A DNA stretch of 64,000 nt from Desulfobacterales bacterium (lineage in GTDB: Bacteria > Desulfobacterota > Desulfobacteria > Desulfobacterales > JAEINQ01), in NCBI GenBank assembly GCA_016342285.1, contig JAEINQ010000014.1, positions 1-64,000 on the forward strand, given 5' to 3'. Under the pieces are notes generated by a model. The model ran no database searches. It was not told the origin of the DNA and worked only from the letters and a program-made list of their open reading frames with translations. The position numbers and the translations under genes were made by a program. Every line of letters starts with the position of its first letter. The stretch's first letter is position 1. Shown piece by piece: positions 277 to 20,856 of the stretch.

Positions 277-399
277 AAAGCATTCCTTATCAATGTCACA
301 ATATTTACGCCTACAAGTACTTAGCCGAGCCCCGATGGTGGACATATCTCATGGATCGGCACATTGAGAGTGGAGAATTGGGGTAAAAAAGTGCAGTTC

Positions 400-559
400 A
401 GGATTTCATTGCCCTGGGTGTCCTGGGCGAAGACCAGACCCACATTGACCATCTCTTTTCAATCTCGTTTCGGGCGAGTTCAACCGGCCCCACGGTGGCC
501 GAATCGGCCTTTTGGGCATGGACCCGGTCACCGGCCGAGGCTCCGGCCACCCGGGCTTT
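400..559 (-). pseudogene. Degenerate fragment of the three-repeat secreted protein (copy 3)
   Basis: On the minus strand, reading begins KARVAGASAGDRVHAQKAD, then TVGPVELARNEIEK. This closely matches repeats 1-2 of the intact protein at 6469-6900. After EIEK the frame breaks: the next frame resumes with EMVNVGLVFAQ, which corresponds to the start of repeat 3, so about 20 codons of repeat 2 have been lost with a frameshift. There is no start codon or signal peptide. The homology stops exactly at the stop codon of the hydrolase at 558, so a recombination junction is likely there. Non-functional remnant. Confidence 0.7.
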
Positions 560-1592
560 AAAATGATTTTTTCAAATCCAGTGCAATTTCATCCAATGCT
601 TCATGGGCCTGGTTCAATACCTTGTCGGCACTGACAAAGCCGTGAATCATTCCCTTGTAACAATGGTAGTTTGTCGAAACACCCGCCTTTTTGAGTTTAT
701 CGGCATACTGCTTTCCCTCGTCTCTTAAGGGGTCCATTTCGGCGGTGATGATGGTTGCCGGTGGAAGATGGCCATGATCGTCTGCCAGCAGTGGAGACGC
801 ATAAGGATCGGTCCAATTGTCTTTATTGGGAAGATAGAGAGCCCGGAACCATTCAATGTTTGCTTTGGTCAGCATAAATCCCTTGCCAAAATACGAGTAG
901 GAATCATTATCCAGGCGGCTGAGATCCGTTGACGGATAAACCAGTACCTGCCGTGCAATTTTCGGCCCCTTTCGGTCTCTTGCCATCAAGGACAATACAG
1001 CGGATAAATTTGCACCCGCGCTGTCACCCATGACGGCGATTCTTGCAGGATCACCGCCAAAAGAGCCGGCATTTTCAGAAACCCAGACCAAGGCGGCATA
1101 AGCGTCGTCCAGCCCGGCCGGGAAAGGGTGTTCCGGGGCCAGTCGGTAATCGACGGCGACCACAATGGCATTGGACGCAACCGACAGATAGCGACAAAGG
1201 TTATCATGGGAATCGAGATTGCCCTGTACCCAGCCGCCCCCGTGATAAAACAGGACGACCGGAAGAGACTTGCTCTCAACAGGGATATAGATGCGAACCG
1301 GGATGTCGACCGCCGGCCCCGGGATTTTTTGGTTGATCACTCGCTTTACGGTGACGGGAACACTGGAAAATTTTTCTACTTTTTCTAAAAGCCGCTTTCT
1401 GCTTTCAGCCACCGAAGGCCTGGAACCATTTTCAGATCCGTCGTCTTCGGACAGGCTCAGGAATTTTAAGATGACGGCGACTTTATAATTTAACCGGCCA
1501 TGCCCTGTATCCGCCCAATGGTTAACAAAAATGGCTCCAACCAGGCAGAGTATTGCCAAAATGACAACGATCCAAATCAGTGCTTTTTTCAT
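558..1592 (-). CDS. Membrane-anchored alpha/beta hydrolase (HSL-type lipase/esterase)
   Basis: A 344-residue carboxylesterase of the hormone-sensitive-lipase group (alpha/beta hydrolase fold 3). It carries the oxyanion-hole motif HGGGW near residue 117, the nucleophile elbow GDSAG near residue 190, then DPLRDEG (acid) and MIHGF (histidine), so the triad is complete. The first ~25 residues are a hydrophobic segment (IWIVVILAILCLVGAIFV), pointing to a signal anchor and periplasmic location. It hydrolyses short- to medium-chain esters; the substrate is not predictable. It stands alone, and its stop codon coincides with the end of a degenerate repeat-protein fragment, so its extreme C-terminus may have been set by recombination. 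Confidence 0.88.
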   Translation of the reverse strand: MKKALIWIVVILAILCLVGAIFVNHWADTGHGRLNYKVAVILKFLSLSEDDGSENGSRPSVAESRKRLLEKVEKFSSVPVTVKRVINQKIPGPAVDIPVRIYIPVESKSLPVVLFYHGGGWVQGNLDSHDNLCRYLSVASNAIVVAVDYRLAPEHPFPAGLDDAYAALVWVSENAGSFGGDPARIAVMGDSAGANLSAVLSLMARDRKGPKIARQVLVYPSTDLSRLDNDSYSYFGKGFMLTKANIEWFRALYLPNKDNWTDPYASPLLADDHGHLPPATIITAEMDPLRDEGKQYADKLKKAGVSTNYHCYKGMIHGFVSADKVLNQAHEALDEIALDLKKSF

Positions 1593-1860
1593 GATGTCTC
1601 CGTCTACATGGAATCCCAGTATCTGCGGTAATCTCGATGATCGATCAACCCCGATTGTAAGATTGGCGACACCATATCATGATTTAAGGTCCGCGTCCTT
1701 CATGCTGCTGAAAATTGATTTTTTCAGGACGCCTCATTTTAAAGAATAATTGGGTGCTTTTTTGCCCCAAAATTGATGGTTTTGAATCTGAAAAGAGCAG
1801 TTTAAGAATTTTACATGAAAGCGGGTGGGGCCTTTTGCAGAAGAAGGAGATAAACGAAAA

Positions 1861-1894
1861 AGGCGCGGCCGGATCACCGGCGGCGCCTTTTTTT
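1861..1894. terminator. Bidirectional hairpin terminator
   Basis: GC-rich hairpin AGGCGCGGCCGG-ATCA-CCGGCGGCGCCT followed by a run of seven T on the plus strand and five T on the minus strand. It lies just downstream of the minus-strand repeat-protein copy at 1919 and closely resembles the hairpin downstream of the intact copy (6408-6439). The gene and its terminator were therefore duplicated together. Confidence 0.7.
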
Positions 1895-1918
1895 GGAGGG
1901 AGAAAAGCACAAAGTGGA

Positions 1919-2281
1919 TCAGTTCAGGGCATGGGCGGCCTGGATGTGCTGGGCCAGACGGGCCACGGGGCTGCCGTTGACCATTTCCTTAACCGTTTCG
2001 TAATCGGCTCTGGCCACGGAGGCCGGTCCCACATTGACCATTTCGGGGGCCTGGGCGTAGACCGCTGCATCGGCCAGGGAGGCATCGCCGGCCACGATGG
2101 CTTTGATATTTTCAAAGTCGCTGCGGGACAATTCAACGGGTCCCACATTGACCGCCTCGGCCTTCTTAGCGAAAACCCGGTTGCCTGCCGGCTCGCCGGC
2201 CACTTGCGCTTTCACGGACATGAAGTCGGCGGCACTGATCTGAACCCCGTCCACATTGACCATATCACCGGCTGATACGGC
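1919..2281 (-). pseudogene. 5'-truncated copy of the three-repeat secreted protein (copy 1)
   Basis: All three repeats are intact here (VNVDGVQISAADF..., VNVGPVELSRSDF..., VNVGPASVARADY...) with the same C-terminus (RLAQHIQAAHALN) as the gene at 6469-6900. Homology ends at about 2281, just before where the signal peptide should be. Upstream codons remain open but give SPESVLSSPKQ and no hydrophobic segment, and there is no convincing ribosome binding site. No sigma-54 promoter or 9-bp leader repeat is present. The likeliest reading is a duplicate that lost its promoter and secretion signal. Alternatively it is a cytoplasmic variant starting at the ATG at 2263. The coding body shows no stops, so decay is recent or selection persists. 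Confidence 0.6.
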
Positions 2282-2408
2282 CTGTTTGGGGCTCGAAAGC
2301 ACGGACTCGGGTGAGGTTCGGTCTTGTTTTTTGTTTGGGCTGACGTCAATATGGGGAAGCCCTCCCAAAAACATCACCCGGGCATCGGCCCTGCAACCGT
2401 GCTGGAAC

Positions 2409-3962
2409 ATGAGGACGCATCTGTTGAATACACCCAAACCAACGGTACCTTCGAGACCTGATCCCAAAATACTGGAAGCCATATTCCGCCGGGCGATGGA
2501 GATGGTGGAGACCGGGAAACTCGACGCGGCGGTTTCCGAATTCAAAACGCTTCTCACCTTGGTCCCGGACCAGGCTGCGGTTCATTTCAACCTGGGAAAT
2601 GCGTTGCGCCGTCTGGGAAGAAACGAAGAGGCCGCGGCCTGTTTTCGGCGTTCCCTCGACCTGGAACCCGATGACCCCCAGGCACATTACAACCTGGGCA
2701 ATGCGTTGACCGCATTGGGCCGCATTGAAGAGGCCACCGCCTGCCTGGAGCGGGCCACGCGAATCGCCCCGACGTTTGCCGATGCCCACTTCAATCTGGG
2801 GGGTCTGTTATTGTCCTCGGGGGATCATGCCGCGGCGGCCCAGCGGTTTCGCACGGTCATTGAACTGAAGGAGAACCATTTCAGCGCCCATTTGCAACTG
2901 GGGCGCGCCCTGATATTTGACAGGCATGGGAAACAGGCCATCCCGGTTTTGCGTTCCGCACTAGCCATGGCTCCGGACAATGCCGATGCCTGCATCGCGC
3001 TAGGCAACGCGTTTTTCGAGATTGATCGGTTTGATGATGCCGTGGTCGCCTACCGCAAAGCCATCGATCTGGAAGACGATAACCCTGATTACCTGTATAA
3101 CCTGGGCAACGCCTATTACCGGCAGAGTCGTCTCGAGGAGGCCGTCGGCATCTTTCAGCGGGCCGCGCAACTGGCGCCGGCAAATGCGGCCATTTTTTTC
3201 AACCTGGGCAACGCCTACCACCGGATGGGAATGATGCAGCGGGCCGCCGACTGTTTCCTCAAGGCCAGTGAGCTGGACAGCACCAACGAGGAGGCTGCCC
3301 ACATGCTCGCGGCCATGACCGGCCGGACCACCACCTCTGCGCCGAAAGCCTGGGTCCGGCGCCTGTTCGATCAGTACAGCGACCGGTTCGAGCAACACCT
3401 TACGGAGGATCTCGGCTACGCGGCGCCGGAACAGCTGGCCGATGCCTTGAAATCCGTGACCGGTCCATCGCCGGTTTTCTCCCATGCGCTGGATCTCGGA
3501 TGCGGCACGGGGTTGTCCGGTTTGCCCTTCCGGGCCATGACCAGACGGTTGACCGGAATCGATCTTTCGGAGAACATGGTGGCCGCTGCCCGCAAGAAGC
3601 AGGTATACGATGACCTGAGGGTAGACGGTATCATCGAATTTCTATCTGCCACGACGAAACGATACGATCTGGTGATTGCCACGGATGTGCTTATTTATCT
3701 TGGCGCGGCAGATGCGCTTTTCGGCCTGATCGGACGGCAAACGTCCAAAGACGCGGCCATGGTATTGTCCATTGAAGCGACCACCGATGCAGACTACGTG
3801 CTGCGTTCGACCGGAAGATATGCCCACAGTGACAGCTATATCCACCGACTCGCCAGGGGAAACGGGTTTGCCGTCCGCTCTTGTCTTCCGGCCCGCATTC
3901 GTAAAGAAGCGGGGCACTGGATCATGGGATCGCTGTTCGTCCTGAAAAAAGAAGCGATATGA
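2409..3962 (+). CDS. TPR-repeat protein with C-terminal SAM methyltransferase domain
   Basis: A 517-residue protein if started at the ATG at 2409; the open frame extends upstream to 2256, but that part is unlike protein and overlaps the antisense repeat-protein copy. Residues ~15-300 hold about eight tetratricopeptide repeats with the usual signature (HFNLGNALRRLGRNEEAAACF). Residues ~345-510 form a class I methyltransferase: HALDLGCGTGLSG is SAM motif I, and LTGIDLSENMVAAAR is the acidic loop. This matches the COG4976-type TPR-methyltransferases, whose targets are mostly unknown. No signal peptide; cytoplasmic. Monocistronic, on the opposite strand to both neighbours. Confidence 0.85.
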   Translation: MRTHLLNTPKPTVPSRPDPKILEAIFRRAMEMVETGKLDAAVSEFKTLLTLVPDQAAVHFNLGNALRRLGRNEEAAACFRRSLDLEPDDPQAHYNLGNALTALGRIEEATACLERATRIAPTFADAHFNLGGLLLSSGDHAAAAQRFRTVIELKENHFSAHLQLGRALIFDRHGKQAIPVLRSALAMAPDNADACIALGNAFFEIDRFDDAVVAYRKAIDLEDDNPDYLYNLGNAYYRQSRLEEAVGIFQRAAQLAPANAAIFFNLGNAYHRMGMMQRAADCFLKASELDSTNEEAAHMLAAMTGRTTTSAPKAWVRRLFDQYSDRFEQHLTEDLGYAAPEQLADALKSVTGPSPVFSHALDLGCGTGLSGLPFRAMTRRLTGIDLSENMVAAARKKQVYDDLRVDGIIEFLSATTKRYDLVIATDVLIYLGAADALFGLIGRQTSKDAAMVLSIEATTDADYVLRSTGRYAHSDSYIHRLARGNGFAVRSCLPARIRKEAGHWIMGSLFVLKKEAI

Positions 3963-5975: not shown

Positions 5976-6302
5976 ATGGCGGAACCCAAAGGATTGATGA
6001 AGCCGGTAAAGATGAAAAAAGAATTGGCGGCGTTTCTGGGAGCAACCGAACTCCCCAGGACAGAGATCACCAAAAAACTATGGGACTATATTAAAGCGAA
6101 TAAACTTCAGACGAAGACTGAAAATGGAAAGCCTGAGAATGCAGGCAAGTTCATTGTGGCCGATGCCGGTTTACTCCCGATCTTCAAAAACACCAAATCC
6201 ACAAGCAAATCGGGCAAGGTCACTGACCTTACCGGTCTGAAAGCGGGTCAGACGATCAACATGATGCAGATGGCCGCTGTTGTCGGCGCAAATGTAGAAT
6301 AA
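5976..6302 (+). CDS. SWIB/MDM2-domain protein
   Basis: A 108-residue protein that is almost entirely one SWIB domain: LAAFLGATELPRTEITKKLW, then DYIKANKLQ, then FIVADAGLLPIF and a C-terminal helix. SWIB is best known from eukaryotic chromatin remodellers (SWI/SNF) and chlamydial proteins, but small single-domain versions occur sporadically in bacteria, where their role is unclear; DNA or protein binding is assumed. The loop between ALLPIF-equivalent and the last helix carries an unusual Lys/Ser/Thr-rich insertion (KNTKSTSKSGKVTDLTG). The ATG is preceded by AAGGAGAAAGAAG, a strong ribosome binding site. Highly basic and cytoplasmic. Confidence 0.85.
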   Translation: MAEPKGLMKPVKMKKELAAFLGATELPRTEITKKLWDYIKANKLQTKTENGKPENAGKFIVADAGLLPIFKNTKSTSKSGKVTDLTGLKAGQTINMMQMAAVVGANVE

Positions 6303-6407
6303 GCTTGATGCATTGGGATAAACAGAAGGATCTCAGCGTCTGCGCAAAAGCAAATGAGTGGTCTTTTTTTAAGGCTCCAGATGCAGGGCGGTGTTAAGAG
6401 GGAAAAC

Positions 6408-6439
6408 AAAGGCGCGGCCGGCTTACCGGTCGCGCCTTT
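6408..6439. terminator. Hairpin terminator shared by convergent genes
   Basis: AAAGGCGCGGCCGG-CTTA-CCGGTCGCGCCTTT forms a long stem with A/T-rich flanks in both directions. It lies between the converging SWIB gene and the repeat-protein gene and can serve both. It closely resembles the hairpin at 1861-1894. Confidence 0.75.
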
Positions 6440-6468
6440 GTTAGCAAGGCGGATAGAAACAGAGCGGA

Positions 6469-6900
6469 TCAGTTCAGGGCATGGGCGCCCTGGATGTGCT
6501 GGGCCAGACGGACCACGGGGCCGCCGCTGACCTGGGCCTTGACAGCCTCGAAATCGGCCTTGTCCACGGCGACTGGACCCACATTGACCATCTCAGGGGC
6601 CTGGGCGTAGACTGCGGCATCGGCCACGGAGGCATTGCCGGCCACAATGGCCTTGACCTTTTCGAACTCGCCGCGGGCCAATTCAACCGTTCCCACGTTG
6701 ACCGATTCGGCCTTTTGGGCATAGACCCCCTCGCCGGCCGGCGCTCCGGCCACCCGGGCTTTAACGGCCATGAAATCGGCCGCACTGATCTCAACGCCGC
6801 CCACATTGACCACATCGCCGGCTGCTGCCGGTCCTGCGGCGACAAAAATCATGGAAACCCCTGCCAGAACCATCATTGCCTTGCGGATCGCTTTTTTCAT
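6469..6900 (-). CDS. Secreted protein of three ~37-residue VNVG repeats, unknown function
   Basis: A 143-residue precursor. Residues 1-27 are a clear Sec signal peptide (basic MKKAIRK, hydrophobic core, GPAAAG cleavage region), which fixes the start at 6900, preceded by AAGGAG. The mature part is three tandem repeats, each opening with VNVG(G/T/P)V and a hydrophobic-Ser/Ala-acidic-Phe pattern, followed by VKAxVAG and, in repeats 1-2, a VYAQ element; the end is RLAQHIQGAHALN. There is no cysteine, no further membrane segment and no domain I recognise. The gene has its own sigma-54 promoter (7044-7059), a 9-bp tandem-repeat leader and a terminator. Two broken copies lie at 1919-2281 and 400-559. 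The open frame continues upstream through the leader repeat, but that part is not signal-like and is excluded. Confidence 0.85.
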   Translation of the reverse strand: MKKAIRKAMMVLAGVSMIFVAAGPAAAGDVVNVGGVEISAADFMAVKARVAGAPAGEGVYAQKAESVNVGTVELARGEFEKVKAIVAGNASVADAAVYAQAPEMVNVGPVAVDKADFEAVKAQVSGGPVVRLAQHIQGAHALN

Positions 6901-6918
6901 GGTGTCACTCCTTGGATC

Positions 6919-7017
6919 GGTTTGATTGGTTTTATTGGTTTGATTGGTTTTATTGGTTTGATCGGTTTTATTGGTTTGATTGGTTTTATCGGTTTGATTG
7001 GTTTGATCGGTTTTATT
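6919..7017. repeat. Eleven 9-bp tandem repeats in the leader of the repeat-protein gene
   Basis: Units of GGTTTGATT alternate with GGTTTTATT, with some T-to-C changes at the last position, from 6919 to 7017; a degenerate unit follows. On the transcribed strand the units are AATCAAACC / AATAAAACC, so the leader RNA would lack G and be nearly unstructured. It lies between the predicted sigma-54 transcription start (~7032) and the ribosome binding site. Being a multiple of three, it keeps the antisense and sense frames open. Confidence 0.9.
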
Positions 7018-7043
7018 GGTTATCTGTTTCGTTGTTGCATCAC

Positions 7044-7059
7044 AGCAACGGTCGTGCCA
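7044..7059 (-). promoter_or_regulatory. Sigma-54 (-24/-12) promoter
   Basis: On the minus strand TTGGCACGACCGTTGCT matches the sigma-54 consensus YTGGCACG-N4-TTGCW at every position, with the required ten bases between GG and GC. It would start transcription near 7032, about 130 bases upstream of the secreted repeat-protein start codon, so the mRNA leader contains the 9-bp repeats. Expression should need an NtrC-type activator; one is encoded at 19297-20856, but no link is shown. Confidence 0.8.
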
Positions 7060-7533
7060 AAGTTCCAATATTAATAAAATATGTATTATATCAGTTTGTT
7101 GACAGTGTGATGGACGAGGCAGGGGTGGCGGCATGCTTTTCAATGTGAAAACTTTGTATTCATATTGAATGCCTTGCGAAGGCCGACGTTCCTCTTGGGA
7201 GAATAGGGACAGATTCAGGACGGCCTATGGGACGGCAAACGCTATTTGCCTAATCCCGGCGTCAAGTTCGTACCGGCGAGGTTGCACCCATGGGTCTCTT
7301 TGGCATTTGCGGCACACTTGTTGCTTTCTCTCCGCCGGCCGCGTTCAACAGCTGTCTGCGGTTTTTTTGCCGTGTTCGCGTTTGGCCGCGGGATGACGGT
7401 TTCTGGCACCGCAAAACGGATACGCCGGGGCAATTTAAAACAAATATTTTAAATTATCATTAGACATGATCGAATTTGTGTACTATAGGCGATTTTAAAA
7501 AAAAATTTAAGATAACGGGTTCGATTTGAAGTC

Positions 7534-7809: not shown

Positions 7810-9141
7810 ATGCGACGTTTCAATCCGCCAGCTTCCATAACGCTACTGGCAGCCGCTTTACTGTCTGGGCTCGTGTCGGTCGGTTGCGACCGCCAGCCGC
7901 AATCCCCGCCGCCGCCCCGTGTTCCTGAAGTGGCCACGGTGACGATCCAACCGCAGGCGGTCATGCTGTCCGCTGAATTGCCGGGCCGCACATCCGCCTA
8001 CCGCATGGCTGAAATCCGTCCCCAGGTCAGTGGTTTGATCCTAAAGCGCCTCTTTGCGGAAGGGTCCGATGTCAAGGCCGGCCAGGTGCTCTATCAGATC
8101 GATGTCGCACCGTTTCAGGCAGCCATGGAAAATGCCGAAGCCAGCCGCCTGGCCGCACAAAAAGCGGCTGACCGGGCACGGGCCGCGGTGAAAGCGAGCC
8201 TGGCGGACGTGTCTCGGATCCAGGTGACCCTGGACCTGGCCCGGACCAACCGCCAGCGCTACGAAGAGGCATTTGACAGTAAAGTCGGTTCGGCCATTCA
8301 GCGTGACCAGGCCGTGAGCGCGGCCAAAGTGGCCGAATCCACACTCGGGGCTGCCGAGGCCCAGGTGGAAAGCAACCAAGAAGCCGTGGCAGCCGCCGAG
8401 GCGATGATCCAGCAGGCCCAAGCGGCGCTGAAAACGGTCCGTATCAACCTGGGATATACCCAAATCACCGCTCCCATCTCAGGCCGCATCGGCCGATCCA
8501 ATGTTACCGAGGGCGCTGTGGTGACAGCCTATCAGCCCATGCCCCTGGCAACCATCCAACAACTCGATCCCATTTATGTGGATGTCCCCCAATCCACGAC
8601 CGAATTGCTGCGATTGAAAAACTCCAGCCTCAATCACAATGGAACGGACCAGAACAAGGTTAAGCTCTTTTTGGAAGGCGGCGGCGCCTATCCCCTGGAA
8701 GGCGTGCTGCAATTTGGCGATGTTACCGTGGACCCGACGACCGGATCCGTCATCTTGCGGGTTGTCTTCCCCAATCCGAAAGAGGTTCTTTTGCCGGGCA
8801 TGTTTGTCCGGACGGTGATCAAAGAAGGGGTCAATGAGCAGGCCATGTTGATTCCTCAGCAGGGGTTGTCCCGTGACCACAGGGGGAACCCCCTGGCGCT
8901 GATCGTGGATGCTGAAAGCAAGGTCGGACTGCGCATGCTCACGGTTGACCGTGCCATCGGTGACCAATGGCTTGTGTCGGCAGGTCTTGCTCCCGGCGAT
9001 CGGCTGATCGTCGAGGGGATGCAAATGTTGCGGCCCGGCACGGTTGTAAAGGCCGTCCCGTTTGTCGAGACAAAAACCGGGCGCGGAGGTGCGGCCGGCC
9101 CCGGCACACGGCCCCAAGGTCCTAAGGACGGAGGTGCCTGA
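7810..9141 (+). CDS. RND efflux periplasmic adaptor lipoprotein (AcrA/MexA family)
   Basis: A 443-residue membrane-fusion protein that links the inner-membrane pump to the outer-membrane channel. The start at 7810 is preceded by AGAGGA and gives a lipoprotein signal with lipobox SVGC (Cys26); the open frame upstream is rejected. VRPQVSGLI-like and RLFAEGSDVKAGQVLYQID sequences mark the lipoyl half-motifs, residues ~100-210 are a long alpha-helical hairpin, and YTQITAPISGRIGRSNVTEGAVV is typical of the HlyD/AcrA barrel region. The Ala/Gln-rich helices agree with coiled coil. It is the first gene of the operon: its stop overlaps the pump's start (TGATG). Confidence 0.93.
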   Translation: MRRFNPPASITLLAAALLSGLVSVGCDRQPQSPPPPRVPEVATVTIQPQAVMLSAELPGRTSAYRMAEIRPQVSGLILKRLFAEGSDVKAGQVLYQIDVAPFQAAMENAEASRLAAQKAADRARAAVKASLADVSRIQVTLDLARTNRQRYEEAFDSKVGSAIQRDQAVSAAKVAESTLGAAEAQVESNQEAVAAAEAMIQQAQAALKTVRINLGYTQITAPISGRIGRSNVTEGAVVTAYQPMPLATIQQLDPIYVDVPQSTTELLRLKNSSLNHNGTDQNKVKLFLEGGGAYPLEGVLQFGDVTVDPTTGSVILRVVFPNPKEVLLPGMFVRTVIKEGVNEQAMLIPQQGLSRDHRGNPLALIVDAESKVGLRMLTVDRAIGDQWLVSAGLAPGDRLIVEGMQMLRPGTVVKAVPFVETKTGRGGAAGPGTRPQGPKDGGA

Positions 9142-12100
9142 TGCTGTCAAAATTCTTTCTCGACCGTCCGGTTTTTGCCTGGGTCATCGCCATTGTCATG
9201 ATGACCGCCGGGGGGCTGGCGATATACAATCTGCCCATATCCCAGTATCCGCCCATCGCTCCGCCCGCCATTGCCATCGAAGCTTTTTTCCCCGGGGCTT
9301 CGGCGGAGACCGTTGAAAATACCGTCACCCAGATCATCGAGCAGAAGATGACCGGCTTAGATGCCATGCTTTACCTCTCCGGCACCAGTTCTTCTTCCGG
9401 CGCCGCCAGGGTTGAGCTGACCTTTGCCCCCGGGACCGATCCGGATCTGGCCTGGGCCAAGGTGCAGAACAAGCTTCAGCTCGCCATGGCCAGCCTGCCT
9501 GATGTGGTGCAGCGCCAGGGGGTCAAGGTCAGCAAATCGACAAGAAACTACCTGATCATCGTGGGCCTGATTTCGGAAGACGGCAGCATGGACGGCGAAG
9601 ATTTGCGGGATTATGCCCAGTCCAATCTGGAAAAGATCCTGTCCCGGGTGCCGGGTGTGGGTGAGGTCGAAAATTTTGGTTCCCAGTACGCCATGCGGGT
9701 CTGGGTTAACCCTGACAAACTGACCAGCTATAGCCTGACCATGGAAGATGTCATCCTGGCGCTGCGGGCCTACAATGTGGAGGTGTCCGCCGGTCAGTTC
9801 GGCGGGGCGCCGTCCGTGGAAGGCCAACGCCTGAACGCGGCCATCATTGTTCAGCATCTGCTCCAGACACCGGAGGAATTTGCCGCCATCCCCATCCGCA
9901 CCAATCCGGACGGCTCGGTGGTCCGTATCAAGGACATCGGGCGCACCGAACTGGGAACCGAGCGTTACGATATCCTCGCTGCTTACAATGGAAAACCCGC
10001 TGCGGCCATGGCCATCCGACAGGCCGCCGGCGCCAACGCCCTGGACACGGCCAATGCCGTCAAGCAGAAACTGGAAGAGATGAGCCGGTATTTCCCCCCG
10101 GGCATGAAAGTGATCTATCCCTACGATACCACCCCCTTTACCCGGGTGGCCATTGAGGAGGTGGTCAAGACCCTTTTCGAGGCGGTCCTGCTGGTATTTG
10201 TCATCATGTATCTTTTCATGGGGACTTTTCGGGCCACCCTGATTCCAACCATTGCGGTGCCGGTGGTGTTGCTGGGCACCTTTGCCGTTCTCGGGCTTTT
10301 CGGGTTCTCCATCAACATGCTGACCATGTTTGCCATGGTGTTGGCCATCGGGCTGCTGGTGGATGATGCCATCGTGGTGGTGGAGAACGTGGAGCGGATC
10401 ATGGGTGAGGAGGGGCTCTCTCCCAGAGAGGCCACGGCCAAGTCCATGGGGGAGATCACCAGCGCCCTGATCGGCATCGGCTTGGTGCTCTCGGCGGTAT
10501 TTGCCCCCATGGCCTTTTTCCCCGGTTCCACGGGGGTCATCTACCGCCAGTTTTCCGTAACCATCATCGCTTCCATGCTGCTTTCGGTGGTTGTGGCCCT
10601 GGTACTGACCCCTGTCTTGTGTGCCTCGCTCCTTAAGCCGGTACCCAAGGGGCATGAATCGGCAGACAACGCCGTTTTTTTTCTGCGGCCCTTTTTCAGG
10701 TGGTTTGACCGGGCCTTTTCCCGCTTCCGAGACCGGTATGTCAAACTGGTCGGTCACGTTCTGGCCAAAAAACTGCGCTTTATCATCCTGTTTGTGCTGA
10801 TTGTAGGTGCCATGGGGGTTCTCTTCCAGCGCATGCCCACCGCGTATCTTCCGGACGAGGACCAGGGGATACTGATGGTTCAGGCCATGCTTCCGTCAGG
10901 TTCGACCCTGGAGCAGACGGAGAAAGTCATGAAACAAGTCCAGGACCATTTTTTGTTGCGGGAAAAAGACGGGGTGGACTCTCTCATGACGCTTTCGGGG
11001 ATGAGTTTTGGCGGTGCCGGGCAAAACATGGGCCTGGGATTTGTCAAACTCAAGGACTGGGACCAGCGCCAGCGACCGGATCTGAAGGTCGGAGCCATCG
11101 CCGGCAGGGCCATGGGCGCATTTTCACAGATAAAAGAAGCCATGGTGTTTGCCTTTGCGCCACCGGCAGTGATGGAACTGGGCAATGCCACCGGGTTTGA
11201 TTTTCAGTTGCAGGACCGCGGCGGCCTGGGCCATGAACGCCTGATGGCGGCCCGCAATCAGCTCCTCGGCATGGCAGCGCAGGATCCGCGATTGGTCCGG
11301 GTCCGGCCCAACGGCATGGAAGATGTGCCCGAATACCGGATTGACATCGATTGGGACAAGGCCGGTGCCCTGGGGGTCCCCATCAGTTCCATCCACAACA
11401 CGTTTGCGGCAGCCTTCGGCTCCGCCTATGTCAACGACTTTATCCAGGCCGGACGGGTCAAGCGGGTTTTTGTTCAGGCAGACGCCCCCTACCGTATGTT
11501 GCCGAATGACCTGGAAAAACTCTATGCGCGAAACCGCATGGGCAAGATGGTTCCTTTTTCTTCCTTTGCTTCCGGGAGGTGGACCCAGGGGTCTCCCAAG
11601 CAGGAACGCTACAATGGCTTTGCCTCGATCAATATTTGGGGTGAACCGGCTCCGGGAAGGAGTTCCGGCGAGGCCATGGCCGCCATGGAAGAAATCGTCT
11701 CAAAGCTGCCCCAGGGGATCGGCTTTGACTGGACCGGGCTTTCCTATCAGGAACGGCTTGCCGGCTCCCAGGCCCCCCTGCTGTATGCATTTTCCATTTT
11801 CGTGGTTTTTTTGTGCCTGGCAGCCCTGTATGAGAGCTGGCCGATTCCCATCGCGATTCTTCTGACGCTGCCCCTGGGGGTCATCGGCGGGGTGATTGCT
11901 TCTTCCGGGCGGGGAATGCCCAACGACGTCTATTTCCAGATCGGGCTGCTGACCACCCTGGGGTTGACCACCAAGAATGCCATCTTGATCGTCCAGTTTG
12001 CCAGGGCCAGGGTCGACGAAGGCGCGCGGCTGACCGCAGCCACGCTCGAAGCGGCAAAATTAAGACTGCGACCGATTATTATGACTTCCCTGGCTTTCGG

Positions 12101-12317
12101 GTTCGGGGTGCTGCCGCTGGCTCTTGCCAGCGGGGCCGGATCAGGCGCACAACGGGCCATCGGCACCGGCGTGCTGGGAGGGATGGTGACCTCCACCCTG
12201 CTGGTGATTTTGTTTGCACCGCTTTTTTACGTGATGATCTATAAAGCGCTCGGCAAACACCGAAAGAGCGTAACCATGAAACACATTGTTGAAAACGGTT
12301 CAGGGGGGACAGTTTGA
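9141..12317 (+). CDS. RND multidrug efflux pump (AcrB/MexB-type, HAE1 family)
   Basis: A 1058-residue inner-membrane proton antiporter, full length for the family. It opens with the canonical FFLDRPVFAWVIAIVMMTAGG helix, followed by the periplasmic porter domain (LPISQYPPIAPPAI). The proton-relay aspartates are present in GLLVDDAIVVVENVE near residue 407. The second half repeats the fold (LRFIILFVLIVGAMG; PTAYLPDEDQG), and the last helices include GLTTKNAILIVQFA and PIIMTSLAFGFGVLPLALA. It exports hydrophobic or amphipathic compounds, solvents or bile-salt-like molecules. It is the middle gene of the three-gene operon, with one-base overlaps on both sides. No TetR or other local regulator is present. 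Confidence 0.95.
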   Translation: MLSKFFLDRPVFAWVIAIVMMTAGGLAIYNLPISQYPPIAPPAIAIEAFFPGASAETVENTVTQIIEQKMTGLDAMLYLSGTSSSSGAARVELTFAPGTDPDLAWAKVQNKLQLAMASLPDVVQRQGVKVSKSTRNYLIIVGLISEDGSMDGEDLRDYAQSNLEKILSRVPGVGEVENFGSQYAMRVWVNPDKLTSYSLTMEDVILALRAYNVEVSAGQFGGAPSVEGQRLNAAIIVQHLLQTPEEFAAIPIRTNPDGSVVRIKDIGRTELGTERYDILAAYNGKPAAAMAIRQAAGANALDTANAVKQKLEEMSRYFPPGMKVIYPYDTTPFTRVAIEEVVKTLFEAVLLVFVIMYLFMGTFRATLIPTIAVPVVLLGTFAVLGLFGFSINMLTMFAMVLAIGLLVDDAIVVVENVERIMGEEGLSPREATAKSMGEITSALIGIGLVLSAVFAPMAFFPGSTGVIYRQFSVTIIASMLLSVVVALVLTPVLCASLLKPVPKGHESADNAVFFLRPFFRWFDRAFSRFRDRYVKLVGHVLAKKLRFIILFVLIVGAMGVLFQRMPTAYLPDEDQGILMVQAMLPSGSTLEQTEKVMKQVQDHFLLREKDGVDSLMTLSGMSFGGAGQNMGLGFVKLKDWDQRQRPDLKVGAIAGRAMGAFSQIKEAMVFAFAPPAVMELGNATGFDFQLQDRGGLGHERLMAARNQLLGMAAQDPRLVRVRPNGMEDVPEYRIDIDWDKAGALGVPISSIHNTFAAAFGSAYVNDFIQAGRVKRVFVQADAPYRMLPNDLEKLYARNRMGKMVPFSSFASGRWTQGSPKQERYNGFASINIWGEPAPGRSSGEAMAAMEEIVSKLPQGIGFDWTGLSYQERLAGSQAPLLYAFSIFVVFLCLAALYESWPIPIAILLTLPLGVIGGVIASSGRGMPNDVYFQIGLLTTLGLTTKNAILIVQFARARVDEGARLTAATLEAAKLRLRPIIMTSLAFGFGVLPLALASGAGSGAQRAIGTGVLGGMVTSTLLVILFAPLFYVMIYKALGKHRKSVTMKHIVENGSGGTV

Positions 12318-13726
12318 TGAACAGGCACTTGATGATCTTATGGGTCGGCATCGGCTTGCTTTTGGGCGGCTGCTCCCTGGCCCCGGAATACATATCGCCC
12401 GAGCGGCCGGTCCCGGACCAGTGGCCCCGGGGCGAAGCATACCGGAATGCAACCGCCATCCCCGGGACACCCACTGTCCAAGAGATGAAATGGAAGGATT
12501 TTTTCGCCGACCAGCGGCTCCAAAAAATCATCTCGATGGCCCTGGACAACAACCGGGACCTTCGACTGGCTGCTCTGAACGTGGAACGGGCCCGGGCGAT
12601 GTACGGGATTCAACGCGCCGAATTGTTCCCGGCGGTGAATGCGGCCGGCAGCGCCACCGCAAAGCGGGTGCCCGCCGATCTATCCTCTACGGGAAAATCG
12701 ATGACAGCGGAAGAATACGGTGTCAACCTCGGTATTGCCGCCTGGGAAATCGATTTCTTCGGCCGCATCCGCAGTCTGAAGGATCAGGCCCTGGAAGCGT
12801 ATCTGGCCACCGAACAGGCCCGCCGTAGCGCGCAGACCGCACTGATGGCCGAGGTTGCCGGCGCCTGGCTGACCCTGGGTGCAGATCGGGAAAACCTCCG
12901 TTTGGCCCGGGCCACCCTTGAAACCCAGCAGGCATCCTATGCTTTAATTCAAAAAAGCCATCGCATCGGGTTTGCCACTGAAATCGATCTGCGTCGCGCC
13001 CAGACCCAGGTGGAGGCCGCCCGAGGGGACATCCCCCGCTATCGCCAGCAGGCAGCTCAGGTTCAAAATGCACTGAACCTTCTGGCCGGCGCTCCGGTGC
13101 CCGAAGAGCTTCTCACGGCGGATTTGAGCCGCATGATCCCTTTAGGAGAGATGTCTCCGGGCCTGTCCTCCGCGGCGCTGTTGAACCGGCCGGATATCAT
13201 CGCGGCCGAGCACCGGCTAAAGGGCGCCAATGCCTTTATCGGCGCGGCCCGGTCCGCTTTTTTTCCACGTATTTCACTGACCACTGCCGTGGGCACCGCC
13301 AGCAGTGAGCTGTCCGGGCTGTTTAAGGCCGGATCGGACACCTGGACCTTTGCGCCCCAGATCGTCATGCCGATCTTCGACGCCCGCACCTGGGCCGCGC
13401 TGAGGGTCAGCAAAGCGGATCGGGAAATCGTCCTGGCCCAATATGAAAAGGCCATTCAGACCGCTTTTAAGGAGGTGGCCGACGCCCTGGCCGTGCAGGG
13501 AACCATCGACGAGCAGGTATCGGCCCAGCAATCCCTCGTGGCGGCGGTGGCGGAAACCCATCGTCTTGCCCGTAAACGATATACCCTGGGGCTGGACAAT
13601 TATCTCGGAGTCCTGGATGCCCAGCGCACCCTCTATCTGCAACAGCAGGTGCAGATATCGCTGCGCCTGGGCAGGCTTGCCAACCAGGTGAGGCTTTACG
13701 CGGTGTTGGGTGGAGGGGCCGGATAG
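12317..13726 (+). CDS. Outer-membrane efflux lipoprotein (OprM/NodT family)
   Basis: A 469-residue outer-membrane factor that completes the tripartite pump. The signal ends in lipobox LLGGC (Cys19), followed by SLAPEYISPERPVPDQW, typical of OprM-like lipoproteins. Two repeated TolC-like halves follow (VERARAMYGIQRAELFPAVNA; ANAFIGAARSAFFPRISL). The ATG at 12317 overlaps the pump's TGA by one base and follows GGGGGGAC; a TTG at 12314 would add one residue. The tandem order adaptor-pump-channel is the standard arrangement for multidrug pumps. Confidence 0.93.
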   Translation: MNRHLMILWVGIGLLLGGCSLAPEYISPERPVPDQWPRGEAYRNATAIPGTPTVQEMKWKDFFADQRLQKIISMALDNNRDLRLAALNVERARAMYGIQRAELFPAVNAAGSATAKRVPADLSSTGKSMTAEEYGVNLGIAAWEIDFFGRIRSLKDQALEAYLATEQARRSAQTALMAEVAGAWLTLGADRENLRLARATLETQQASYALIQKSHRIGFATEIDLRRAQTQVEAARGDIPRYRQQAAQVQNALNLLAGAPVPEELLTADLSRMIPLGEMSPGLSSAALLNRPDIIAAEHRLKGANAFIGAARSAFFPRISLTTAVGTASSELSGLFKAGSDTWTFAPQIVMPIFDARTWAALRVSKADREIVLAQYEKAIQTAFKEVADALAVQGTIDEQVSAQQSLVAAVAETHRLARKRYTLGLDNYLGVLDAQRTLYLQQQVQISLRLGRLANQVRLYAVLGGGAG

Positions 13727-19296: not shown

Positions 19297-20856
19297 ATGA
19301 AGAGAAGATTAAAAATGGATGAAAACGAATTTTTCCGTGAAGCGACCCTGCGCATCTGCGGATCAATCCAGATTGAATCCGCCCTGTCCGATTGTTTCAA
19401 CTACCTGAAACGTTCCATTGATGCCGACAGTATCTATCTGCATTACATTACCCCCAATGAAAAAAGCGGCACTGTCTTTGCCATGGCCGACCACGGGGGA
19501 GGGCGCCGGATGGACCTCCGTTTTTCCCATCCGGACGTGGTCTGGCGCTATATCGGAACCGGTGAGAAGCTGCCCAAAGAGTTGCTTTTAAACCGGGCCG
19601 ATCAGCATCCCCTCGGAAAAGAGATGGTCCGTATTGTTGGGCTTAGGGGAAAAATTTCCTGCATGATCTTGCGCCTTAGTATCGATGGAAACGAGATGGG
19701 GGTGGTGGGATTGGCTGCCCGGGGATGGAACCGGTTCACCAAAGAGCATCTGGACCTGGTGCGGCTCCTGCAGGCACCGTTTGCCATTGCCATTTCCAAC
19801 AGCCGTCGATACCTGGAGCTTTTGGAACTGAAAAATCTTCTGACCGATGATAACCGATACCTGTTGAATGAACTGCGCATCCAGCAAAATGACGAGATTG
19901 TCGGTGCAGACAACGGCCTCAGCCAGGTCATGCAGCAGGTCCGCCAGGTTGCCCCGCTGGAAAGCCCGGTGCTGCTGCTCGGTGAAACCGGTGCGGGCAA
20001 GGAGGTGATTGCCAATGCCGTGCACAATTTTTCCAACCGCGGCAACGGCCCGTTTATCAAGGTCAATTGCGGGGCTATTCCCGAAGCCCTCATCGACAGT
20101 GAACTTTTTGGCCATGTCAAAGGCGCCTTTACCGGGGCTCTTGAAAAAAGACGCGGCCGCTTTGAACGGTCCCACCGGGGAACCATTTTTTTAGATGAAA
20201 TCGGCGAATTGCCAAAGGCGGCCCAGCTTCGCCTCTTGCGCGTCCTGCAGGAAAAAGAGTTTGAACCGGTGGGCGGAACAGACAGCATCCGTGTGGATAT
20301 CCGGGTGGTGGCGGCAACCAATCGCAACCTGGAAGCGCAGGTGCGAAAGGGTCGGTTTCGTAAGGATCTTTACTTCCGGCTCCGGGTGTTTCCCATCGTT
20401 ATTCCGCCCCTGCGGGAAAGAAAAGGGGATATCCCGGCTCTGGTCAATTATTTTCTGCTGAAAAAATATCGGAAAATGGGATTTGAAAATTTCCCGGAAC
20501 TGGCCATCGGTGCCCTGAGAAAACTGACGGTCTATGATTGGCCCGGCAATATCCGGGAGCTGGAAAATACCGTGGAACGCGCCATGATCATCAGTCGGGA
20601 TGCGCCCCTGCGGTTTGACGATCTTGGCGCCCTTCGGCTGGATGGCCCGGCTGAAGAACAGAGCGCATCCGATGGCGGGTCCCTGGTGATGGACGATGTC
20701 CTGATCCGTCATATCCAAAAGGTCCTGGCCCTCACCCGGGGCAAAATCAGCGGCCCTGACGGTGCGGCGGAACGCCTGGGCATCAATCCTGCCACCTTGC
20801 GCCACCGTATGCGAAAACTCGGCATCGCCTTTGGCCGGCGCGTAAAACATCCTTGA
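19297..20856 (+). CDS. Sigma-54-dependent activator with GAF sensor domain
   Basis: A 519-residue NtrC/NifA/FhlA-type enhancer-binding protein. Residues ~15-170 look like a GAF ligand-sensing domain. Residues ~200-430 are the AAA+ core with Walker A GETGAGKE, the sigma-54 contact loop GAFTGA, Walker B GTIFLDEIGE, and the R-finger region. The C-terminus (LALTRGKISGPDGAAERLGI...LRHRMRKLGI) is a Fis-type helix-turn-helix. It has no receiver domain, so it senses a small molecule rather than a histidine kinase signal. An ATG at 19315 with GAAGAG upstream is an equally good start. Targets are unknown; the only clear -24/-12 promoter I found is at 7044-7059. Confidence 0.92.
   Translation: MKRRLKMDENEFFREATLRICGSIQIESALSDCFNYLKRSIDADSIYLHYITPNEKSGTVFAMADHGGGRRMDLRFSHPDVVWRYIGTGEKLPKELLLNRADQHPLGKEMVRIVGLRGKISCMILRLSIDGNEMGVVGLAARGWNRFTKEHLDLVRLLQAPFAIAISNSRRYLELLELKNLLTDDNRYLLNELRIQQNDEIVGADNGLSQVMQQVRQVAPLESPVLLLGETGAGKEVIANAVHNFSNRGNGPFIKVNCGAIPEALIDSELFGHVKGAFTGALEKRRGRFERSHRGTIFLDEIGELPKAAQLRLLRVLQEKEFEPVGGTDSIRVDIRVVAATNRNLEAQVRKGRFRKDLYFRLRVFPIVIPPLRERKGDIPALVNYFLLKKYRKMGFENFPELAIGALRKLTVYDWPGNIRELENTVERAMIISRDAPLRFDDLGALRLDGPAEEQSASDGGSLVMDDVLIRHIQKVLALTRGKISGPDGAAERLGINPATLRHRMRKLGIAFGRRVKHP

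Follow-up and report, generated by a model that had tools for sequence, protein, structure and literature searches.

Computational analysis of the window, a 64,000-nucleotide stretch from a Desulfobacterales bacterium (positions 1 to 64,000 of contig JAEINQ010000014.1), identified a gene for a small exported protein of three repeats that is under selection, belongs to a family spread over several genomes, and has dedicated regulatory elements. The gene and its surroundings, together with the remains of two paralogs, comprise the following features.

394..561, minus strand: frameshifted fragment of a further paralog (sequence comparison)
1859..1907, minus strand: terminator of the 5′-truncated paralog, a homologue of 6408-6456 (sequence match)
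1919..2281, minus strand: 5′-truncated paralog with three repeats kept, without signal peptide, promoter or leader
6405..6442, minus strand: Rho-independent terminator of the intact gene, a GC-rich hairpin plus T run (inverted self-match)
6469..6900, minus strand: intact gene for the three-repeat exported protein (ORF list, self-alignment, dN/dS)
6520..6591, minus strand: core of repeat unit 3, MVNVGPVAVDKADFEAVKAQVSGG (unit consensus and profile)
6634..6705, minus strand: core of repeat unit 2, SVNVGTVELARGEFEKVKAIVAGN (unit consensus and profile)
6742..6813, minus strand: core of repeat unit 1, VVNVGGVEISAADFMAVKARVAGA (unit consensus and profile)
6820..6900, minus strand: Sec-type signal peptide, MKKAIRKAMMVLAGVSMIFVAAGPAAA (by eye; cleavage near A27/G28, no lipobox)
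6908..6913, minus strand: Shine-Dalgarno sequence AAGGAG of the intact gene (sequence comparison)
6914..7021, minus strand: 12-copy 9-bp tandem repeat AACCRATNN, making up most of the 5′ leader (repeat search)
7045..7059, minus strand: sigma-54 −24/−12 element TGGCACG-N4-TTGC, TGGCACGACCGTTGC (common to the four intact paralogs)
7137..7169, minus strand: putative enhancer made of two TTCA-N3-TGA sites at 20-bp spacing (pattern search, paralog comparison)

A first-pass annotation made from the sequence alone had placed a gene for a protein with a signal peptide and no cysteines at 6469-6900. The ORF was confirmed at those coordinates and encodes 143 amino acids, of which the mature part (∼116 amino acids, 11.6 kDa, pI 5.0) contains no Cys; Ala, Val, and Gly make up 52% of the protein. 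Export, also proposed in that annotation, is supported by the Sec-type signal peptide as read by eye. VNVG was found at residues 31, 67, and 105, a spacing of 36 and 38, and self-alignment of the protein scored 81, 76, and 58 at offsets of 38, 74, and 36, compared with a shuffle maximum of 53 (0 of 1,000 shuffles reached the repeat score). The three internal VNVG repeats of ∼37 residues recognized at first reading were thereby confirmed.

The family consensus for the unit was hV[ND][VIL]GxVxh[SDA]xx[DE]FxxhKxxVxG. Conserved across units were G5, the hydrophobic positions, and an S/D/A at position 10 followed three residues later by a D/E at position 13, a pattern that reads as a helix capping box. 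No conserved His, Cys, or other catalytic-type residue was identified in the alignment of repeat units across the family, and the residues that are kept are, judging from this alignment, structural in kind. AlphaFold was run with a 13-sequence alignment for the window protein and one Desulfosarcina homologue, giving mean pLDDT values of 49 and 64, respectively, and a pTM of 0.24 for both. In the low-confidence model of the window protein, unit 1 was strand-strand-helix and the other units strand plus helix, while the Desulfosarcina model contained a hairpin-helix in units 1 and 3, with block confidence there mostly 75 to 83. From these models the repeat unit is likely a beta-hairpin plus helix. 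Structure prediction of the protein, which had been suggested as a check, was informative for the unit but not for the overall packing. Given the low AlphaFold confidence, this fold is provisional, and part of the chain could be disordered. A fold search of the PDB using the better of the two models, a weak test given the low model confidence, returned no match.

Searches of Pfam, NCBIfam, PHROGs, and the PDB identified no convincing match for the family. Its initial description as unrecognized therefore stands, a strong match to a characterized family being absent from all four, and literature searches found no report on it. Full-length and profile searches were also run against genome sets of the order, class, and phylum, each of them a sample. 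Homologues were identified in 10 other genomes of the order sample, three in family f5, one in f9, and six in f29, the last being Desulfosarcina (D. widdelii, D. alkanivorans, and MAGs). The possibility that homologues would be missing outside this strain, raised in the first-pass annotation, was thus refuted by their presence in three other families. The class sample added no family beyond those in the order, and the phylum sample gave only three matches (E values, ∼5e−4 to 7e−4), which were read as chance. Weak matches in G283, G429, G440, G485, and G004:C100 were rejected as chance because the frames there were large or unrelated ORFs. A search of the contig collection using the window protein alone gave no match. 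The repeat-unit profile search proposed earlier was carried out with a 24-residue profile; it recovered essentially these proteins only, usually with two or three matches each, and, one marginal match apart, no larger protein carrying the unit. No family match was found in the phage and plasmid collections or in viral contigs searched with the Desulfosarcina alignment, and an origin from phage or plasmid was rejected on the lack of a match in either collection. On these sequence searches, the family is real and lineage restricted, with members known so far from just a few related families within one bacterial order.

The window had also been described as holding three local copies of the gene. 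Three loci are present, but they represent one intact gene and two ruins, and the intact set consists of four genes on three contigs. Whole-genome searches located the other intact paralogs at C30:70128, C35:87625, and C35:91220 (79 to 80% identity), with further copies at C35:102471 (a fragment with a stop) and C10:29180 (a distant paralog, 38% over the matched part). The truncated paralog at 1919-2281 starts just ahead of the mature start and retains its terminator; this copy and the frameshifted one at 394-561 support the local duplication and decay seen at first reading. Across the four intact paralogs, dN was 0.12 to 0.20 and dS 0.30 to 0.70 over the full gene (dN/dS, 0.22 to 0.43), and these genes are under purifying selection. 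The two tandem copies in Desulfosarcina and the four here suggest selection for dosage.

Regulation supplied the strongest new evidence. Control by sigma-54, as claimed in the first-pass annotation, is supported by the −24/−12 element, which had 11 matches genome-wide versus 1 for the reversed control; GG and GC at the fixed spacing were found upstream of all four intact paralogs. The two-site TTCA-N3-TGA element lies ∼80 to 110 bp upstream of the sigma-54 element. Its exact pattern occurs at four places in the 6.5-Mb genome, all upstream of intact paralogs, and allowing one mismatch added four more matches, one of them being the opposite-strand reading of the window site. Between paralogs the two-site core was 88 to 100% identical, compared with 27 to 54% for the adjacent stretch (7136-7100) and 28 to 56% just upstream; with the AT-rich part down to 7075 added, the adjacent stretch was 44 to 61% identical. 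Pairwise BLASTN homology between the window and C35 ended at ∼7093, short of the two-site element. As the genes are paralogs, part of the likeness between their promoters reflects common descent. With the two-site element exact and its core conserved above the flanks, putative upstream activator sites are present, and this conservation pattern points to function. The main text of a paper on the D. vulgaris sigma-54 regulome (PMC4641369) contains no TTTCA or TGAAA string. A sigma-54 enhancer-binding protein with a GAFTGA motif is encoded at 19297-20856 of the window; nothing ties this protein to the element at 7137-7169.

Between promoter and gene lies the leader, in which the C30 copy carries 13 of the 9-bp units and the C35 copies few. 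The leader RNA was predicted to be little structured (−5.3 kcal/mol over 159 nt). It showed no structure beyond that of its own shuffles and was not less structured than these either, so that base composition accounts for its openness. The 9-bp repeat was rejected as a family-specific signal, given that many other sites of the genome carry arrays of it: the minisatellite AACCRATYD recurs at roughly a dozen locations, with 62 matches genome-wide versus 1 for the reversed control. These locations include C28:123143, C30:70575, C33:17197, C52:12513, C65:70, C72:12981 and 14162, C84:2590, C86:25536, and C106:15954, in several cases directly before a gene start.

A different arrangement was found in the relatives. 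In f5, f9, and f29 the family gene adjoins a divergently oriented TetR gene (TetR_N/TetR_C_15 type), the exception being the third D. widdelii copy. The inverted repeat TGAAC-N4-GTTCA, with at most one mismatch, was identified within ∼125 bp upstream of the gene at 9 of the 10 TetR-linked loci scanned: it was exact at L026, L028, L029, and L061 and had one mismatch at L025, L030, L060, L062, and L064, while L027 had only a degenerate version. Several of these loci have the operator placed between the promoter hexamers, TTGACA at −35 and TATTGT or TATATT at −10. The loci resemble known divergent TetR/target pairs with TetR_C_15, in which regulator and likely target are neighbors and the promoter contains an inverted-repeat operator, but differ in that the target is an uncharacterized exported protein. 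A scan of stretches surrounding the window and paralog loci gave no exact TetR operator, only two scattered one-mismatch matches. The genome does encode an orthologue of the TetR protein (C63:35820-36437, L144; E value, 3.9e−76) with three TGAAC-N4-GTTCA-type operators; it faces a methyltransferase-like gene, not a family member. By the patterns used, neither promoter type was found at the distant C10 paralog or the third D. widdelii copy. The latter is a solitary member without a TetR neighbor (L129/L063, 5213482-5221817); an enhancer-binding protein of the response-regulator type and a likely kinase are encoded a few kilobases away.

Control therefore differs between lineages, TetR acting in the relatives and sigma-54 here. 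Sigma-54 control is not general for the family, as most relatives have a TetR/sigma-70-type promoter, and for the same reason the earlier argument from sigma-54 to a surface, matrix, or signaling role is weakened. The locus is a compact case in which one gene family has wholly different regulation in related families with apparent inducibility kept, and it provides two independent handles on the inducer: in Desulfosarcina and related bacteria, a TetR protein whose operator can be read from the sequence, and here, a sigma-54 regulon of four genes that has its own upstream element. A previously unlabeled protein family has also been given clear boundaries.

As the copies lie nearly always under a tightly switched promoter, large amounts of the protein are probably produced when it is called for. 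A stoichiometric periplasmic protein with a protective or binding role is favored by the combination of export, small repeated units, multiple gene copies, control that is apparently tight and inducible in both systems, and the lack of catalytic-type conservation. We tentatively prefer to read it as a small, Sec-exported, most likely periplasmic protein of three units that would be produced in bulk when needed, act stoichiometrically, and be probably envelope protective or ligand binding. A soluble periplasmic location, a non-enzymatic role, and a protective or hydrophobic-binding function are what we infer. Here, joint activation of the four paralogs would come from a sigma-54 enhancer-binding protein bound at the two TTCA-N3-TGA sites, and the long, little-structured leader would leave the ribosome site accessible. 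The relatives would rely on a TetR-type repressor that its ligand releases from TGAAC-N4-GTTCA, which frees a strong sigma-70 promoter. The exported protein may then act under membrane or chemical stress.

Among the closest known systems, the inducible periplasmic stress proteins of the Spy/CpxP/ZraP type are likewise small and exported, and they are switched on by dedicated regulators. Sigma-54 controls ZraP, and the genome analyzed here has a ZraP-like gene, named by eye, that also carries a sigma-54 element. However, no Pfam model of this kind was found in the window protein and 13 relatives. These stress proteins have an all-helical fold; the low-confidence AlphaFold models of the family show units of strand and helix.

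The first-pass annotation had favored a surface, matrix, or signaling role, which the analysis did not specifically support; the sequence gives no indication of a destination past the periplasm. A surface or matrix protein, leaving the cell or staying on the outer membrane with self-assembling repeats, would fit the short tandem repeats, the richness in Ala, Val, and Gly, the export signal, and the multiple copies. Beyond the Sec peptide, however, no outer-membrane or secretion signal was seen by eye, the number of units is not variable but about three per copy, and the protein, being without a Pfam match, has none to fiber or adhesin repeat models; no curlin or adhesin repeat profile was found among the relatives either. 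We regard this explanation as unlikely.

The preferred periplasmic reading could be extended to a three-unit hairpin-helix class without a PDB relative that binds hydrophobic compounds in sulfate reducers meeting hydrocarbons, with TetR control in most lineages and here a dedicated sigma-54 activator, a repeat-built leader, and gene multiplication. Some Desulfosarcina species are linked with hydrocarbons, the background from which the hydrocarbon part of this reading is drawn, and the extension as a whole is speculative and rather doubtful.

Kinship with the SurA/PpiC N-terminal hairpin-helix, as a chaperone-like periplasmic protein, is improbable. By eye the family unit resembles VNGExITRxEF and shares with that domain a hairpin-helix and a V-x-V-x-G...S-x-x-E-F pattern, and SurA_N_3 was matched in 1 of 14 members at an E value of 0.24. 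This single match is not significant, though; the loop in the family is one residue longer, there is no isomerase domain, and unit and full-length profiles found no such structure in the PDB.

The three similar units with variable linkers, and the tight switching of expression read from the promoters, would suit a peptide pheromone or signaling precursor processed into repeat-derived peptides. Such a precursor is most improbable: conservation in the unit core follows a hairpin-helix pattern with buried-type residues, no conserved site for processing was seen between units, and neither a receptor nor an exporter is conserved alongside the gene. An accessory role in the adjoining RND efflux system, suggested by the divergent orientation of the window copy relative to the membrane-fusion, pump, and outer-membrane set at ∼7811-13726 (named by eye), was set aside as very remote because gene context is not conserved: neighbors differ between paralogs, and no such genes lie beside the three other intact paralogs or beside homologues from other families.

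Two further neighbors were recorded in the window. A small SWIB/MDM2-domain protein (PF02201; E value, 3.9e−16) is encoded at 5976-6302, directly adjoining the three-repeat gene, and a TPR-repeat protein with a C-terminal methyltransferase domain is encoded at 2256-3962.
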